From: Hydrogenophaga sp. NFH-34
GTDB lineage: Bacteria > Pseudomonadota > Gammaproteobacteria > Burkholderiales > Burkholderiaceae_C
Length of the DNA: 64,000 nucleotides
Assembly: GCF_021401345.1 (NCBI RefSeq)
Contig: NZ_JACBGE010000018.1
Coordinates: 1-64,000 of the forward strand
Direction of reading: 5' to 3'
The position numbers and the translations under genes are program-made. Positions 14,257 to 58,263 of the stretch are shown here, in pieces. Below the pieces are notes generated by a model that ran no database searches, had not been told where the DNA came from, and saw only the letters and a program-made list of their open reading frames with translations. Every line of letters begins with the position of its first letter. Within the stretch, counting starts at the first letter, position 1.

Positions 14257-15249
14257 TCAGTTGGCCCTGGCGGCTGCGATCACCTTCTTGACGTAGGCGC
14301 CGATGGGCGAGGCCATCCACTTGTCATCGACCGCACCCGTGGCTTTGGCGAAGGCCGCCTTGTCCACCGTGGTCACCTGCACACCCTTGGCCTTGAGGTC
14401 GGCCAGCAGCTTGTCGTCGGCGTCCTGCGACATCTTGCGTTGCAGCGCGGTGGCTTCTGCGGCGGCTTCGGTCACGGCCTTGCGGTCAGCGTCGTTCAGG
14501 CGATCCCAGGTGCGCTTGCTCATCAGGAAGGGCGTCATCTGGAACTGGTGGTTGGTCAGCGCCAGGTGTTTCTGCACCTCATACAGCTTGCTGGCGTGGA
14601 TGTTGACCAGCGGGTTCTCCTGACCGTCCACCACACCCTGCTGCAGCGCGACGTACAGCTCGGCGAACTTGATCTGCTGCGCCTCGGCACCCAGCGCCTG
14701 CATGATGTCCACCAGCACCGCATCGGGCGGGGTGCGCATCTTCAGACCCTTCATGTCCTCGACCTTGCTGATCGGGCGCTTGCTGTTGGTCATGTGGCGG
14801 ATGCCGTTGTCCCAGTAGCCCAGCACCACCATGCCCTTCTCGGCCGACTTCTGCGCCAGCTCCTGGCCCAGCGGGCCGTCCAGCAGCTTGAAGGCCTGCG
14901 CCGGCGTGGAGAACATGAAGGGCATGCCGTAGGCCGCGTACTCGGGCACGGCCACCGACACGGCGCCCTGCGAGTTGGCGGTCATGTCCAGCGCGCCGGT
15001 GCGCACGGCGGTCACCATGGCGGCGTCGTCACCCAGCTGGGCCGACGGCGCGACCTGAACCTCGATGCGACCGGCCGACTTGGCCTTGACCACCTCGGCG
15101 AACTTGACGGCGGCCTCGTGGCGCGGGTTGCCCGGCGCGGCGCCGTGGCCCAGGGTCAGCTTGGTGGCCTGGGCCTGCGCGGCCAGCGGCAGGGCGGCGG
15201 CCAGGGCGGCGATGGACAGCAGGGTGCGGGTGAAAGTCTTGCGTTGCAT
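14257..15249 (-). CDS. dctP: TRAP transporter substrate-binding protein (DctP family)
   Basis: A protein of 330 residues with a Sec signal peptide (MQRKTFTRTLLSIAALAAAL, cleavage after AAQAQA). The receptor domain shows the DctP pattern, for example LGHGAAPGNPRHEAAVKF, then the GLKMRTPPDAVLVDIMQALG and YVALQQGVVDGQENPLVNI segments; the latter holds the conserved region that contacts a carboxylate in many family members. ATG 15249 fits the signal peptide. The preceding SDR frame reads into this gene in another frame. The ligand is likely a sugar acid or keto acid, given the SDR and transketolase partners. Confidence 0.9.
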   Translation of the reverse strand: MQRKTFTRTLLSIAALAAALPLAAQAQATKLTLGHGAAPGNPRHEAAVKFAEVVKAKSAGRIEVQVAPSAQLGDDAAMVTAVRTGALDMTANSQGAVSVAVPEYAAYGMPFMFSTPAQAFKLLDGPLGQELAQKSAEKGMVVLGYWDNGIRHMTNSKRPISKVEDMKGLKMRTPPDAVLVDIMQALGAEAQQIKFAELYVALQQGVVDGQENPLVNIHASKLYEVQKHLALTNHQFQMTPFLMSKRTWDRLNDADRKAVTEAAAEATALQRKMSQDADDKLLADLKAKGVQVTTVDKAAFAKATGAVDDKWMASPIGAYVKKVIAAARAN

Positions 15250-24732: not shown

Positions 24733-25964
24733 CTCAGAAGACCCAATGGAAGCCCGCCCGCCGCTGGGGCGTGGGGGTGGCGGCACTGGCCGCGGTGGCG
24801 GTGCTGGTGTGGGCGGCCTACCGGCCAAGGCCCATGGACGTGGAAACCGCCACGGTGACCGAAGGCCGCTTTGAACAGGTGATCGAAGAAGACGGCCAGT
24901 TGCGCCTGCAGCACCGTTACCTGATCACCGCGCCCACCGCCGCGCAGTTGCAGCGGCCCACGCTCAAGGTGGGCGATGTGGTGCAGGCCGGCGACGTGGT
25001 CGCCGTGCTCGCGCCCGCGGCGTCGCAACTCATCGACCCGCGCACCCGCAGCGTGCTGCAGCAGCGCGTGGGCAGCGCCGACGCCGCCGTGGCCGCCGCC
25101 CGTGCCAACGTGCAGCGCGCCCAGGCCGCGCTGGCCCAGGCCACGCTCGACGCCGAGCGGTCTGCCCAGCTGGCACAGGACAACTTCATCGCCGCGTCGG
25201 CGCGCGACCAGAGCCGCCTGGCGCGCGAGGCCGCCGCGCAGGCGCTGAAGGCCGCGCAGGCCGAACAGAACGCCGCCGAGCACGCCGCCAGCGAAGCCCG
25301 TGCGGCCCTCGGTTGGGCAGAACCAAGCGGCAGCGGCGTCAGACCGGGCCAGACAGCGGGAGGGTGGTCGCTCAAGAGCCCCGTCAGTGGCCGCGTCATC
25401 AAGCTGCACAAGGACAGCAGCGAACCCGTGCAGGCCGGCGCACCGCTGCTGGAGATCGGCGACACCGGCGCCATGGAGGCGGTGATCGACGTGCTCTCGG
25501 GCGATGCGCCCCGCATCGCCACCGGCGCGGCGGTGCAACTCGCCACCGGTCGCAACCAGCCGCCGCTGGCAGGGCAGGTGGTGCGCGTGGACCCGGTGGC
25601 CTTCACCAAGACCTCGGCCCTGGGCATTGAAGAACAGCGCGTCAACATCACCGTGGCGCTGAACGCACCCGCTGCGGAACTGCAGAAACTCGGCGACGGT
25701 TTCCGTGTCGACGCGCGCATCACCGTCTCGGCCCAGGACGGGGCCTTGCTCGTGCCCTCGGCCGCGCTGGTGAGGCAGGGCGAAGGCTGGCAGGTGTTCG
25801 TGTTGCAAGCCGGCAAAGCCCGCGCGAGGGCGGTGAGCTTCCGCGACCGCAATGCCGACAGCGCTTGGGTGAAGGAAGGGCTGAAGGCGGGGGAGACGGT
25901 GGTGCTTTATCCAGGGAGCGGGATGAAGGATGGGCAGCCGGTGAAGGGTAAGCGGGCAGCCTAA
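24729..25964 (+). CDS. Periplasmic adaptor (membrane-fusion) protein of the HlyD family
   Basis: A protein of 411 residues. A single N-terminal anchor (WGVGVAALAAVAVLVWAAY, about 13-31) is followed by a lipoyl/barrel region, a long alanine/glutamine-rich coiled-coil hairpin (about 105-200) and a second half ending in a beta-barrel domain (RVDARITVSAQDGALLVPSA). It would bridge the FtsX permease to the outer membrane; no outer-membrane channel gene is adjacent. Start overlaps the permease stop (ATGA). Confidence 0.87.
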   Translation: MTQKTQWKPARRWGVGVAALAAVAVLVWAAYRPRPMDVETATVTEGRFEQVIEEDGQLRLQHRYLITAPTAAQLQRPTLKVGDVVQAGDVVAVLAPAASQLIDPRTRSVLQQRVGSADAAVAAARANVQRAQAALAQATLDAERSAQLAQDNFIAASARDQSRLAREAAAQALKAAQAEQNAAEHAASEARAALGWAEPSGSGVRPGQTAGGWSLKSPVSGRVIKLHKDSSEPVQAGAPLLEIGDTGAMEAVIDVLSGDAPRIATGAAVQLATGRNQPPLAGQVVRVDPVAFTKTSALGIEEQRVNITVALNAPAAELQKLGDGFRVDARITVSAQDGALLVPSAALVRQGEGWQVFVLQAGKARARAVSFRDRNADSAWVKEGLKAGETVVLYPGSGMKDGQPVKGKRAA

Positions 25965-26090
25965 CCGCGTTGGACTCAGCGCGGACAGACGACCACGATC
26001 TGAAAAAACTGCCCGTCAATGCGATGGCGGCAGCACAGCCGGCCTGTTGGAGCCGCTTGGTGATGCTTTCAGGGACCGCCGTTGGTTGCG

Positions 26091-27029
26091 TCAGCGGGAG
26101 ACTGCCTGTTTCTCTCCGCTCTGTGGGCTCGTTCGGCTGCAATCCATCACCGTGCTTCTGAACCAGTGGTGTGCAGGGTCTGAATCTCGCCGAATGTGCC
26201 ACGCTTGCTGGAATGGGAAGCGGGGTAGTTTGAACGGTGGCGTGAACTGCATCAGCTCTTGACCATGGAGCACTGGATCCAGCGTTCGACTGGCAACGGT
26301 CAGAATCAAATCGGTGTCTGTCAGTACTTTCGTCGACGCGCTCCAATGCGGCAGAACGAGTGCAATGTGCCTGTGCAGCCCTTGAGCGGCCAAGGCCGAA
26401 TCGATTTCGTTGTCGGCATCCGGTCTGGTGGCCACCAGCACATGCGGACGCGCCAGCCACTGGGCCAGCGAGAGCTTGCCGCGCAAGGGCAGCGAGCGCT
26501 TGTCGGCCACGCTGATGAAGTGTTCCTGGAACAGGGTTTCGACCCAGATGTTGCTCGGGGTGTCTGGGAAAACGCCCAGGGCCATATCGATCTCGCCATC
26601 CCCGAGCTGGGCCAGCATGGCCTCGCGGCTCGCTTGGCAAACGGCTATGTCGATGCCCGGCGCCTGATCGCGCAGCCGTTTGACCAACGTCGGTAGCACC
26701 AAATGGGCCGCATAGTCAGACATGGCGACGCGAAAGTGTCGTACGGCCTGGTGCGGGTCAAAGGCGCCTTCTCGCAGCAACGAGGTGAGTTGATTCAGGG
26801 CCGCTTCCAGAGGGCGTTGCAAATCCTGGGCGCGTGGTGTCAACGCCATCGCTGCGCCTCGCCGGGTCAGCAAGGGGTCTTTGAAAATCTCTCGTAGCTG
26901 CGCCAGTGCATGGCTGACCGCTGGTTGGCTCTTGTGCAGCCGCCGTGCAGCCCGCGTGACGTGTTGTTCTGCGAGCAAAGCATGGAGCGTCAGCAGCAGA
27001 TTGAGGTCAATGCGTCGGAGGTCATCCAT
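26091..27029 (-). CDS. LysR-family regulator
   Basis: A protein of 312 residues. Beginning DLRRIDLNLLLTLHALLAEQ, then HKSQPAVSHALAQLREIFKD gives the winged helix-turn-helix of the NodD/NahR-like branch. The effector region includes GDGEIDMALGVFPD and the late ILTVASRTLD. It is divergent from a small DMT transporter, with a perfect palindrome in the short spacer. A 126-base spacer to the convergent HlyD gene shows no clear feature. Confidence 0.87.
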   Translation of the reverse strand: MDDLRRIDLNLLLTLHALLAEQHVTRAARRLHKSQPAVSHALAQLREIFKDPLLTRRGAAMALTPRAQDLQRPLEAALNQLTSLLREGAFDPHQAVRHFRVAMSDYAAHLVLPTLVKRLRDQAPGIDIAVCQASREAMLAQLGDGEIDMALGVFPDTPSNIWVETLFQEHFISVADKRSLPLRGKLSLAQWLARPHVLVATRPDADNEIDSALAAQGLHRHIALVLPHWSASTKVLTDTDLILTVASRTLDPVLHGQELMQFTPPFKLPRFPFQQAWHIRRDSDPAHHWFRSTVMDCSRTSPQSGEKQAVSR

Positions 27030-27052
27030 TCAACGAATGATGCCTGTTTGAA

Positions 27053-27072
27053 ATAAGAATTTCCATTCTTAT
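27053..27072. promoter_or_regulatory. Perfect AT-rich palindrome, putative LysR operator
   Basis: ATAAGAAT-TTCC-ATTCTTAT, an inverted repeat with 8-bp arms, lies in the AT-rich spacer between the LysR gene (start 27029) and the DMT transporter (start 27127). This spacer is clearly richer in A and T than its surroundings. The placement fits autoregulation and control of the transporter. Visible symmetry; function inferred. Confidence 0.55.
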
Positions 27073-27126
27073 ATCGAATACATGAACATCCGGCATGTTC
27101 TTTCACCTGTGACGAGGCGTTTCCGC

Positions 27127-27642
27127 ATGCAGTGGTCTTCTTCTCTTTCCGGTTTGTTTCCCATGGTGATTGCTTTGGTGGCTGGTGCTGTCGTGCCTTT
27201 CCAGGCGGCAAGCAACGCGGCATTGGGGCGTGCGCTCGGGCATCCGTTGTGGGCCACGCTGTCTTCTCTGGCTGTCAGCGTACTGGTCATCGTGCCGCTG
27301 ATGGTGCTGCTGCGGGTTCCTGCACCGGCGTTAGGTGCTGCGGCGCAGGGGCCGGCGTGGTGGTGGCTCGGTGGTGTGGCCGGGGTGGTCTATATCACTG
27401 CCGCACTGGTATTGACGCCCAAGCTGGGCGCGGCCAGCTTTATTGTCAGCGTCATTGCGGGGCAGATGCTGGCATCGCTTCTGATCGACCATTACGGCTT
27501 GATGGGACTGACGCCCAAGCCTGCTGGTGCGTGGCGGATCGTGGGCATTTTGCTGATCCTGGTGGGCATGGTCGTTGTGCAGATGAGCCGTTCGCCTGCG
27601 GCCCATGCGTCTGGCCCGGCGCCTTCCGGCGGGTGGCGGTAA
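27127..27642 (+). CDS. DMT-superfamily transporter (YdcZ/DUF606 type)
   Basis: A small membrane protein of 171 residues with five hydrophobic segments: LFPMVIALVAGAVVPFQAAS, ATLSSLAVSVLVIVPLMVLL, WWLGGVAGVVYITAALVLTP, ASFIVSVIAGQMLASLLID and IVGILLILVGMVVVQMS. This is the pattern of the five-helix YdcZ/DUF606 branch of the drug/metabolite transporters. I preferred ATG 27127 because a GAGG lies nine bases upstream; an in-frame ATG at 27082 falls in the promoter region. Divergent LysR is its likely regulator. Substrate unknown. Confidence 0.75.
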   Translation: MQWSSSLSGLFPMVIALVAGAVVPFQAASNAALGRALGHPLWATLSSLAVSVLVIVPLMVLLRVPAPALGAAAQGPAWWWLGGVAGVVYITAALVLTPKLGAASFIVSVIAGQMLASLLIDHYGLMGLTPKPAGAWRIVGILLILVGMVVVQMSRSPAAHASGPAPSGGWR

Positions 27643-27734
27643 GGGGCGTTTGGTGTGTGCAAACGCCTGCTGCCATAACCCCGGTCCTGCCCGCAAACAT
27701 CTTCAAACACCGACCCAACCGCGATGCACCACCG

Positions 27735-28005
27735 ATGTTTACCCGAGAGGCGGTAGCGGATGACGAACTTGGGCGCCATCATGCGCACGGTGTGACCGAG
27801 CCGAGCAAACTCGCGCGCCCAGTGGTGGGCGCCGGAGCAGGCCGCCATGCCGATCAGGCACGGCGGCAGCGAAGCGATGAGTTCGAGCAGCTTGGCGTGC
27901 GTTACCCGGGGGGCACCAGCGCGGGTTTGCCTGCTTCATCCACGCCATGCACGGCAGAGACGTTCTTTGCCAGATCGATGCCAACGGATACGATGGCCAG
28001 CGACC
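27735..28005 (-). pseudogene. Decayed IS110-family transposase fragment
   Basis: Reading the minus strand, VSVGIDLAKNVSAVHGVDE (near 27990-27930) is the DEDD-type N-terminus of IS110/IS1111 transposases. The frame then stops at TAA 27902-27904. Shifting one base at the C6/G3 run just before it restores homology: KLLELIASLPPCLIGMAACS, then HHWAREFARLGHTVRMMAPK. After about KFVIRYRLSGKH homology ends. So one frameshift and loss of roughly the last three-quarters of the protein. The conserved glutamate of GMEAC is also Ala here. It cannot be functional. It lies directly upstream of catB. Confidence 0.75.
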
Positions 28006-28118
28006 TCCCCTTCCAGCAAACTATTGGGTTGATGAGATTTCGCACTTCCCACCGTGGCAGCTGGATGCCGTGCCCCGCAAATGCGCGGATCACCCGGGAC
28101 CTGGCATCGCACCGCCGT

Positions 28119-28148
28119 CAAGGGGTTCTGCCTTCGGCAAGCCCCTTG
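28119..28148. other. Hairpin in the 28006-28215 non-coding stretch before catB
   Basis: CAAGGGG and CCCCTTG form a 7-bp outer stem around an inner GCC-TTC-GGC stem, with mismatches between. It lies 68 bases before the catB ATG, in a stretch with no other feature seen. It might be a terminator of a lost upstream gene or a target site for the neighbouring IS110-type element. It does not carry integron recombination core sites that I could recognise. Confidence 0.4.
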
Positions 28149-28215
28149 CGTCAAACGTTGGTTGTTGCATCCCGGATGCAGCCGGTAGTGATGAATATCC
28201 GTTGATTTTCTTGCG

Positions 28216-28857
28216 ATGAACTATTTTGAAAGCCCATTTAAGGGCAAGCTGCTTTCGGAGCATGTAAAGAACCCCAACATCCAAGTGGGGCGGTACAGCT
28301 ATTACTCTGGCTACTATCACGGGCACCCATTCGACGAATGTGCGCGATACCTTGCGCCGGACCGTGAAGATGTTGACAAGCTGATCATCGGCAGCTTCTG
28401 CTCTATCGGAAGCGGCGCCTCTTTCATCATGGCGGGCAACCAAGGGCACCGGTATGACTGGGCGTCATCCTTTCCTTTCTTTTACATGCAGGAAGAGCCC
28501 GCCTTCTCCCGTTCACTTGATGCCTTTCGGAAGGCTGGTGACACTGTCATTGGCAATGATGTCTGGATTGGCTCTGAGGCAATGGTCATGCCCGGCATCA
28601 CGATCGGGCACGGTGCTGTGGTTGGTAGCCGCTCTTTGGTGACAAAGGATGTGGCTCCTTACGCCATCATGGGCGGAAATCCGGCCCAGCAGATTAAGAA
28701 GCGCTTCTCTGAGGAGGAAATATCATGGCTTTTGGAGATGGCGTGGTGGGATTGGCCGCTGGATAAGATCAAAACGGCAATGCCTATGTTGTGCTCATCC
28801 GATATTGCTGGTCTGTACAGGTATTGGCGTGAATCCCGAAGCATGAGCGACCGCTGA
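28216..28857 (+). CDS. catB: CatB-type (xenobiotic) chloramphenicol O-acetyltransferase
   Basis: A protein of 213 residues, the normal length for CatB/Vat acetyltransferases. Beginning [20 protein letters not shown], then [20 protein letters not shown], it follows CatB proteins almost residue by residue. The catalytic histidine is His78 in NQGHRYDW, followed by left-handed beta-helix hexapeptide repeats ([20 protein letters not shown]). It acetylates chloramphenicol-like compounds with acetyl-CoA in the cytoplasm. Its base composition is visibly less GC-rich than its neighbours, and it adjoins an insertion-sequence remnant, both signs of acquisition. No integron attC site is recognisable. Confidence 0.88.
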
Positions 28858-28920
28858 GCGATCGGGCCACCGGCGCTGGGGCCGGCGCCCGGGAGATTGG
28901 GCGGTAGCGGCAAGGGAAAA

Positions 28921-28964
28921 TCGTCCGTTCCGACGACGCCCGGGCCCGGGGAGCCGACCAGAAT
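28921..28964 (+). promoter_or_regulatory. Operator S1 (TCGTC-N6-GACGA) and promoter of the thiolase gene
   Basis: TCGTCCGTTCCGACGA occupies 28921-28936. After exactly 22 bases follows CAGAAT (28959-28964) as a -10 hexamer. The inverted repeat is therefore centred near -42.5, overlapping the -35 position, which is where a class-II activator such as a LuxR-type protein binds. The thiolase ATG is at 28995. One of five such sites in the window. Confidence 0.65.
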
Positions 28965-28994
28965 GGCCGCAGTTTCAACCAACCCCTTGTCGCC

Positions 28995-30173
28995 ATGTCT
29001 GAAGCCTATATCGTCGCCGCTGTCCGAACTGCTGGGGGGCGCCGCGACGGCCGCCTGGCCGGGTGGCACCCTGTGGAGCTGTCTGCCCAGGTGCTGAACG
29101 CGCTGGTGGACCGCACCGGCATCGATCCTGCGCTGGTCGAGGACGTGATCATGGGTTGCGTGAGCCAGGTGGGCGAGCAGTCGACCAACGTGGCGCGCAA
29201 CGCGGTGATGGCGTCGAAGCTGCCCGAATCGGTGCCGGGCACGTCGCTGGACCGCCAGTGCGGCTCGTCGCAGCAGGCGGTGCATTTCGCGGCGCAGGCC
29301 GTGATGTCGGGCTCGATGGACGTGGTGATCGCGGCCGGCGTCGAGTCGATGACGCGTGTGCCGATGTTCAGCCCTTCGTCGCTGGCGCAGAAGGCGGGCC
29401 TGGGTTACTACCAGAGCGAATCGATCAACCGCCGTTACAACGACGTTGTGTTCAGCCAGTTCGTGGGCGCCGAGATGATGGCGAAGAAGTACGGTTTCGT
29501 GCGCGAAGACCTGGACCGCTTTGCGCTGCAGAGCCACCAGCGCGCCATCGCCGCCACGCAGGCCGGTGCTTTCGATGCCGAAATCCTGGCGCTGCCGGTG
29601 CGCAACGCGGAGGGCGTGGACACGGACGACATCCACCAGGTGGACGAGGGCATCCGCTTCGATGCGTCGCTGGAATCGATCGGCAATGTGAAGCTGCTGC
29701 AGGAAGGTGGTGTCATCAGCGCGGCCAATGCGAGCCAGATCTGTGATGGCGCCACCGGTGTCATGGTGGTCAACGAGCGTGGCCTGAAGGCCCTGGGGGT
29801 GAAGCCCATGGCGCGCATCCACCACATGTCGGTGATCGGCCACGACCCGGTGATCATGCTGGAGGCACCGATTCCCGCCACCGAGCGCGCGCTCAAGAAG
29901 GCCGGTCTGAAGATCGACGACATCGATCTTTACGAAGTGAACGAAGCGTTCGCCTCGGTGCCGCTGGCCTGGCTCAAGGCGCTGGGGGCCGACGCCGACC
30001 GGTTGAACGTGAATGGCGGCGCCATCGCCCTGGGCCATCCGCTGGGCGGTTCGGGCACCAAGCTGATGACGACGCTGATCCACGCGCTGGGGGCACGCGG
30101 CAAGCGCTATGGCCTGCAGACCATGTGCGAAGGCGGCGGCATGGCCAACGTGACCATCGTCGAACGGCTCTGA
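28995..30173 (+). CDS. Acetyl-CoA acetyltransferase (thiolase)
   Basis: A protein of 392 residues. The nucleophile Cys89 is in SLDRQCGSSQQA, His348 is in GGAIALGHPLGGSG, and the second active-site Cys378 is in QTMCEGGGMA; all catalytic residues are present. Thiolases cleave 3-oxoacyl-CoA with CoA at the last step of each beta-oxidation turn. It is preceded by operator S1 and followed, after a hairpin, by the Liv-type importer operon, so it probably opens the same transcription unit. Broad 3-ketoacyl thiolases of this group are often used for branched or cyclic substrates. Confidence 0.92.
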   Translation: MSEAYIVAAVRTAGGRRDGRLAGWHPVELSAQVLNALVDRTGIDPALVEDVIMGCVSQVGEQSTNVARNAVMASKLPESVPGTSLDRQCGSSQQAVHFAAQAVMSGSMDVVIAAGVESMTRVPMFSPSSLAQKAGLGYYQSESINRRYNDVVFSQFVGAEMMAKKYGFVREDLDRFALQSHQRAIAATQAGAFDAEILALPVRNAEGVDTDDIHQVDEGIRFDASLESIGNVKLLQEGGVISAANASQICDGATGVMVVNERGLKALGVKPMARIHHMSVIGHDPVIMLEAPIPATERALKKAGLKIDDIDLYEVNEAFASVPLAWLKALGADADRLNVNGGAIALGHPLGGSGTKLMTTLIHALGARGKRYGLQTMCEGGGMANVTIVERL

Positions 30174-34576: not shown

Positions 34577-34620
34577 TCGTCAGTTCCGACGAGGCCGGCC
34601 GCACAGCGACTTCCTACGAT
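34577..34620 (+). promoter_or_regulatory. Operator S2 (TCGTC-N6-GACGA) and promoter of livK
   Basis: TCGTCAGTTCCGACGA lies at 34577-34592, one base different from S1. After exactly 22 bases comes TACGAT (34615-34620) as a -10 hexamer. The site is 112 bases before the livK ATG. Same class-II geometry as the other copies. Confidence 0.65.
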
Positions 34621-38491: not shown

Positions 38492-38535
38492 AGGCTACGG
38501 TCAGGGCGGGCGGCAGGCATCGTCGGAACGGACGA
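38492..38535 (-). promoter_or_regulatory. Operator S3 (TCGTC-N6-GACGA) between SDR and LAL regulator
   Basis: TCGTCGGAACGGACGA lies at 38520-38535 and is the exact reverse complement of S1. Read on the minus strand it is flanked by GGCA/TGCC, which extends the symmetry. Exactly 22 bases away on the minus strand is TAGCCT (38492-38497), which suits the SDR gene. On the plus strand the same distance shows no -10 hexamer, so the regulator gene may use another promoter. It could also serve autoregulation of the 38619 gene. Confidence 0.65.
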
Positions 38536-51246: not shown

Positions 51247-51290
51247 TCGTCGGATTGGACGATGCCAGCCACGTGGGTGCGCGCCACCAT
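51247..51290 (+). promoter_or_regulatory. Operator S4 (TCGTC-N6-GACGA) and promoter before the racemase/ACAD unit
   Basis: TCGTCGGATTGGACGA lies at 51247-51262, followed by TGCC. Exactly 22 bases later is CACCAT (51285-51290), a weak -10 hexamer that matches the spacing of the other sites. It is 70 bases before the racemase ATG at 51333. A second GTCGTC run lies just upstream. Confidence 0.62.
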
Positions 51291-58219: not shown

Positions 58220-58263
58220 TCGTCGCTTCGGACGATGTGCCCACAGGGTGCGCTTTCTAGACT
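58220..58263 (+). promoter_or_regulatory. Operator S5 (TCGTC-N6-GACGA) and promoter of the fadB-like gene
   Basis: TCGTCGCTTCGGACGA lies at 58220-58235, with TTTT before it and ATGTGCC after it. Exactly 22 bases later is TAGACT (58258-58263) as a -10 hexamer. It is 70 bases before the GTG start at 58306 and sits in the spacer shared with the LAL regulator gene on the other strand. Class-II activator geometry. Confidence 0.68.

Follow-up and report, generated by a model that had tools for sequence, protein, structure and literature searches.

A chromosomal catB gene of Hydrogenophaga sp. NFH-34 read as the relic of an integron cassette

The catB locus

The window, meaning the whole stretch of DNA analysed (64,000 nucleotides of Hydrogenophaga sp. 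NFH-34), holds a catB gene within a variable site that lies between hlyD and a thiolase operon. The features of the site are listed below with their positions in the window and, where one applies, their strand.

25959-25975, plus strand: hlyD stop region, which contains GCCTAAC and bounds the variable site on the left; DNA homology to six relatives ends at about this point
26091-27029, minus strand: LysR-type regulator gene (Pfam HTH_1 and LysR_substrate; GC3 0.70, the mean being 0.87)
27082-27642, plus strand: YdcZ-type membrane protein gene (Pfam DMT_YdcZ; GC3 0.70)
27703-27728: probable scrap, 26 bases long, of the far end of the insertion sequence named in the next line (92% identity across these 26 bases with the left-end region of the copy in locus L165, a modest support)
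27737-28100, minus strand: IS110/IS1111-type remnant, recognised by DNA similarity to other copies, with a frameshift near 27908-27911 and an internal deletion
28106-28163, plus strand: sequence read as the decayed attC of a lost preceding cassette, with hairpin, L′ and R′ (GTTGGTT) kept and R″ unrecognisable
28164-28215, plus strand: leader of 52 bases, reaching from the attC core to the start codon of catB
28216-28857, plus strand: catB, type B chloramphenicol O-acetyltransferase gene, assigned by family model, relatives and tree
28834-28916: rearranged junction at the expected place of the catB cassette's own attC, in which no attC was found
28921-28936: palindrome (operator S1) before the thiolase operon, inside a stretch common to the congeners G001, G033, G079 and G088
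28995-30173, plus strand: thiolase gene (Pfam Thiolase_N/C), first gene of the catabolic operon and native flank, 89-92% identical in four congeners

Composition sets much of this site apart. Of the 46 gene-like open reading frames (ORFs) that a codon-position heuristic selected in the window, catB is lowest in GC content (53.4%, against a mean of 68.2% and a standard deviation of 2.6 for the 45 others) and lowest in GC3 (64.3%, against a mean of 87.1%), and its codon adaptation is second lowest, the YdcZ gene being lowest. The LysR and YdcZ genes form a divergent pair with foreign codon use between hlyD and the insertion sequence remnant. Of 66 other genomes of the genus, one held a YdcZ match at E≤1e-20, with 34% identity. 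Given the low GC3 of both genes and the rarity of YdcZ in the genus, the stretch from 26091 to about 28834 looks foreign, beyond catB itself, and the LysR and YdcZ genes were probably also acquired.

The catB gene and its product

The catB ORF encodes 213 amino acids, and its product scores 425.2 bits against the NCBIfam model NF000490 CatB, above the cut-off of 350 for that family; its best relative among solved structures is CatB8 (PDB chain 8j40). These results uphold the identification of a catB-type gene made in a preliminary description of this DNA. A hexapeptide-repeat fold is predicted from a PF00132 match (43.1 bits, cut-off 27) and from the structures of relatives. In the motif NQGH, H78 is the residue aligned with position 79 in the chain of the xenobiotic acetyltransferase 1xat, a solved structure whose catalytic histidine we take to be His79. 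In a plasmid collection, CatB8 of Acinetobacter baumannii was the top-ranked relative (86.8% identity), followed by CatB3 (85.4%). Homology to CatB spans residues 1 to about 206, ending in YWRE, after which the window protein has seven unrelated residues where CatB8 has three. By analogy with other CatB enzymes, the product would most likely O-acetylate chloramphenicol with acetyl-CoA. Expression of catB, present as a single copy in its genome, is doubtful because the sole promoter-like match in the region scanned, which lies inside the insertion sequence remnant, is weak, and 0.6 such matches are expected by chance.

An attC remnant upstream of catB

The preliminary description had seen no attC here and proposed a scan of 28006-28215 for one; that view does not hold, as an attC-like sequence lies within this stretch, at 28106-28163. 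Positions 28112-28160 match an attC of a congener (L159:2055-2114) at 88% over 49 bases (local E 1.8e-11), and the congener site is a complete attC, with GCCTAAC and GTTGAAC as its two ends, that lies where an ORF ends. A pattern made of the hairpin and 3′ arm, allowing up to three mismatches, found two sites in 67 genomes of the genus, those of the window and of L159, with zero mismatches each, and a reversed-pattern control found none in the same genomes; as the pattern was written from these two sites, its specificity alone is informative. The R′ motif ends 52 bases before the ATG of catB.

A strict attC scan missed sites that had been read by eye, and a looser scan, then a covariance model, were used instead. 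The model was built from 12 attC sites, nine of which lie within the 18 integron or insertion sequence loci that were scanned with it; in these loci, 28 of the 37 matches scored 30-69 bits and nine scored lower. At 28106-28163 it gave 20.4 bits (E 0.0023), a low score that fits the loss of R″ and the second best in the window. The window's top match, at 14484-14557 on the minus strand (23.1 bits), was rejected as false, lying inside coding sequence on that strand. As single-stranded DNA, the window site folds only slightly better than its shuffles, with a z of -1.8 (10 of 200 shuffles as good), against -3.6 for the intact L159 site. The weight of the attC assignment is thus set by homology and context rather than by the model score.

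Searches elsewhere returned little. The plasmid collection held no match to the stretch of attC and leader (28101-28215), viral contigs contained none with the attC pattern, and an Rfam scan of 26000-30000 gave no hits. The catB leader has no visible likeness to the leaders of catB3 and catB8, and it is 52 bases long against 28 for catB3. In bearing an attC away from any nearby integrase, the site is like the CALIN elements, or lone attC sites, of IntegronFinder 2.0, where attC sites without an integrase are proposed to be degraded integrons (PMC9024848). It differs from a CALIN in having one attC, a decayed one, where the default of IntegronFinder 2.0 is two (PMC9024848).

The IS110/IS1111-type remnant

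The preliminary description of a frameshifted and truncated IS110-family transposase before catB was accurate: transposase residues 7-70 are encoded at 28099-27908 and residues 70-128 at 27911-27735, in two frames, so that residues 7-128 are kept. Fragments of the window transposase are 83-84% identical to an open copy (L156) of 399 amino acids with the domains Transposase_20 (PF02371) and DEDD_Tnp_IS110 (PF01548), the basis on which the element is assigned to the IS110 family of predicted DEDD transposases. DNA like 27737-28100 occurs in three more copies in the same genome and also in a number of congeners. The last 18-19 bases that other copies have on the catB side are absent, the homology ending at 28100, which is 115 bases before catB.

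Several observations connect this element with attC sites. GTTAG is the attC core, and in eight of nine other copies (three in NFH-34 itself, five spread over three further genomes) the end on the catB side runs into GTTAG; the ninth, a remnant in G021, runs into GTCAG. As these ends are homologous, the GTTAG could in part belong to the insertion sequence itself. Against this, the other end of the element follows an attC-like sequence in L158, and the left flank is attC-like by eye in L166 and not so in L165. At E≤1e-3, attC matches lie near the element in three of the six loci with full right ends (L157, L158 and L166), and the model found none at that threshold near it in the other three (L156, L164 and L165). 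L166 is a cassette array of a congener, with several attC matches and two copies of the attC-associated element.

IS1111-type elements have been described as targeting attC (PMC11187229). The element described here is like the attC-targeting IS1111-type elements, such as ISKpn4 and ISPst6, in combining an IS110-family transposase with copies that run into the attC core, and it differs from them in that the window copy is truncated and lacks the end from which its target could be read. The IS1111-attC group was reportedly defined by Tetu and Holmes in 2008 and by Post and Hall in 2009. From its sequence and flanks, the element appears to belong to a type that uses attC sites as insertion targets, and on that reading it would mark a cassette array and probably was not the vehicle of catB. 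The preliminary description had implied such a carrier role, which its adjacency to the gene favours; however, catB follows none of eight other copies within the 130 bases shown, the gene occurs once in the genome, and the homology of the element stops well short of it. Carriage or mobilisation of catB by the insertion sequence is accordingly given next to no probability.

The downstream junction

In catB3, catB8 and the relative from a Dechloromonas metagenome-assembled genome (L062), the stop codon TAA falls within the R″ of the attC that follows (GCCGTCTAAC or GCCGCCTAAC). The homology of the window gene to these genes ends about three codons before this point, the attC model and sequence comparison found no attC of its own between 28834 and 28994, and from 28916-28917 onwards the sequence is homologous to the region of the thiolase promoter in four congeners. 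Together these findings indicate that the attC and the last codons are gone and that 28834-28916 is rearranged. Lacking an attC of its own, catB would be classed as the relic of a cassette rather than filed as a cassette.

The stretch 28858-28916 is 80% GC, and parts of 28853-28893 weakly match another contig of the same genome (84%) and the congener G004 (96% over 24 bases). Such matches, the high GC content and the draft state of the assembly (72 contigs) might suggest that the junction is an assembly artefact in which the real attC of the cassette was lost. Against this, catB lies well inside its contig, the genes on either side have open frames and the promoter stretch has its counterpart in four congeners, which makes an artefact very improbable.

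Occurrence in the genus and phylogeny

A protein search of 67 genomes of the genus, including that of NFH-34, gave CatB matches at E≤1e-20 in ten. Among the 66 other genomes, a full-length CatB-type protein is encoded in one (G061), with 70% identity across 205 residues, and the matches in the remaining eight are partial, at 40-47%. A separate search of 59 relatives, 35 of them from the same genus and G061 not among them, found no CatB-type protein. The G061 gene (L216:4534-5150), a 73% DNA match, is like the window gene in encoding a CatB-type protein within the same genus, but it looks native, with a GC3 of 0.87 against 0.64, has no attC model match above 13 bits within 10 kb and no match to the insertion sequence, and sits at another place with other neighbours, among them an ORF that by eye is presumably a chorismate synthase. 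As this gene is chromosomal and not a cassette, the genus does contain catB-type genes that have no integron.

A maximum-likelihood protein tree with 54 rows places the window protein as sister to a group of seven rows comprising CatB8, L062 and CatB3, within a clade of eight rows supported at 100/97. Support for the seven-row group is 98/94, and 92/94 in a second tree of 55 rows to which the G061 protein was added; the eight-row clade keeps 100/97 there, and the G061 protein falls outside it. CatB2 branches just outside the clade, weakly supported. A high-scoring attC directly follows the gene in six of the seven other rows, five of which are identical catB3, and L062 has no attC model match, the start of R″ alone being visible. 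By this evidence the window gene belongs to a clade borne on cassettes. Its DNA is 80-83% identical to catB8 and catB3, and dN/dS is 0.04-0.08 against catB8, catB3 and L062 and 0.14 against the more distant L201, values that are rough because dS is 1-2.4.

By the preliminary description, the gene would count as ancestral if every relative had it at this locus and with matching codon usage. The comparison was made, and it gave one homologue at another place in 66 genomes, neighbours that differ from those in relatives, and the lowest GC and GC3 of the ORFs compared. The existence of the G061 protein and the purifying selection in the pairs compared are in keeping with an ancestral gene; yet the G061 gene has a native GC3, another location and a place outside the clade of the window gene, and the other 65 genomes have at best a partial match of 47% at the threshold used. 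A catB that is ancestral and was lost elsewhere has scarcely any probability, and the preliminary description of an acquired gene, less GC-rich than its surroundings and fixed in the chromosome, is supported.

The site downstream of hlyD

The ABC-FtsX-HlyD genes before the variable site are common to the window and its relatives. The hlyD stop region itself scores 11.5 bits with the attC model, a weak match that is probably due to chance. In two of the six relatives whose sequences were fetched, hlyD is followed by an attC (G064) or by the same insertion sequence (G021). In G064, two attC matches (63.1 and 37.4 bits) and ORFs of low GC3 follow hlyD, and in G021 a remnant of the element is followed by an ORF with a CHAP domain (L182:13592-14188), with no attC model match at this site. 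In G063 and G088 (L185 and L187), two adjacent ORFs in common, of 155 and 195-196 amino acids, may form a toxin-antitoxin pair; in G075 there is a 556-amino-acid ORF and no attC match, and the contig of G027 ends about 0.9 kb beyond hlyD. The stretch directly after hlyD in G064 (L186:6871-7574), with its two attC sites and low-GC ORFs, belongs to a genome that has no integrase over the cut-off.

On the other side of the site, a divergent ORF, which by eye we take to be crotonase-like, faces the thiolase operon in L161 and L163, two of four relatives with this operon, of which three were read (L160 as DNA only). In the plasmid collection, DNA of the thiolase region matched Cupriavidus at 77%. 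In the genome of NFH-34, the best matches to the crotonase-like ORF of L163 (41%) and to the closing ORF of the site in L182, L185 and L186 (37%) are not close copies, which indicates that the right border arose by deletion or rearrangement with the loss of both neighbours. A reciprocal, mirror junction elsewhere in the genome was sought and not found, the best matches being the same 37% and 41%.

Integrons are present more widely in the genus, where 15 of 67 genomes have integrases over the cut-off. That of NFH-34 has none, but its contig 37 (L158) carries two fragments of an integron integrase (model positions 1-98 and 213-314) beside a cassette array with three attC sites read by eye, which later served as training rows of the model. 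These remains indicate that the lineage once had an integron of its own. On the same contig, an insertion sequence remnant lies inside an attC.

Origin of the gene and comparison with known cassettes

With a decayed attC directly upstream, catB is best read as what is left of a cassette that belonged to a chromosomal integron array, now decayed, downstream of hlyD, a reading to which a probability of roughly 0.78 is assigned. The features of the site, what they are homologous to and the lack of an attC after catB are observed directly, and the order of events would be as follows. Cassettes may have gathered at the site downstream of hlyD, where an attC-targeting IS110/IS1111-type element could then have inserted. 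Deletions would have removed most of this element, the 5′ end of the attC that precedes catB, and the catB cassette's own attC together with about the last three codons, and the site would finally have been joined to the thiolase operon. Having lost its own attC, catB is now an ordinary gene of the chromosome.

The main competing account is that catB entered with DNA other than a cassette, for example together with the LysR and YdcZ genes, and that the attC scrap alongside is unrelated. The foreign look of those two genes suits this account, as do the lack of an attC after the window gene and the finding that most catB homologues outside the clade have no attC match in the loci examined. It is nevertheless unlikely, as catB nests with cassette-borne genes, its start lies so close behind the attC R′, and an attC or the same insertion sequence occupies the site in two of six relatives.

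Clinical integrons commonly hold catB3 and catB8 as cassettes, genes found on plasmids of hospital bacteria, and the origin of such cassettes is only partly known. The window protein is 85-87% identical to CatB8 (L199, A. baumannii pDETAB15) and CatB3 (L167, Aeromonas caviae p1), but unlike those cassettes it is encoded by a single chromosomal gene without an attC of its own and with another C-terminal tail and leader. In one report, a Xanthomonadales source of catB3 is predicted from its attC, and catB3 is located in a chromosomal integron of Lysobacter oculi, 100% identical to the catB3 cassette including its attC (PMC8352920). The Lysobacter gene resembles that of the window in being a catB cassette in a sedentary chromosomal setting, and the window gene differs from it as a deeper branch whose own attC has gone (PMC8352920). 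In light of that prediction and of the Lysobacter case, the window gene is no proof that catB3 originated in Hydrogenophaga (PMC8352920). That chromosomal integrons of this genus were part of the reservoir that fed the catB8 and catB3 lineage, the window gene being an early-branching copy stranded at a recurrent site after hlyD, is a speculative idea of low probability.

Among the papers listed on catB cassettes, integrons and attC sites, no description of this locus was found, which leaves its absence from the literature unproven. The case is a rather ordinary one of a stranded cassette that becomes an ordinary chromosomal gene after the loss of its attC, and if a resistance phenotype is absent, catB is simply a fossil. 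Its added interest lies in a branch just outside a group of clinically common cassettes, as such a chromosomal relic gives a place and a lineage in which to look for intact relatives.

Operator palindromes

The palindrome at 28921-28936, TCGTCN6GACGA, starts 63 bases after the catB stop, in agreement with the distance to operator S1 given in the preliminary description. The same sequence occurs five times in the window, against a mean of 0.05 in shuffles, and all five copies (28921-28936, 34577-34592, 38520-38535, 51247-51262 and 58220-58235) lie in its catabolic part.
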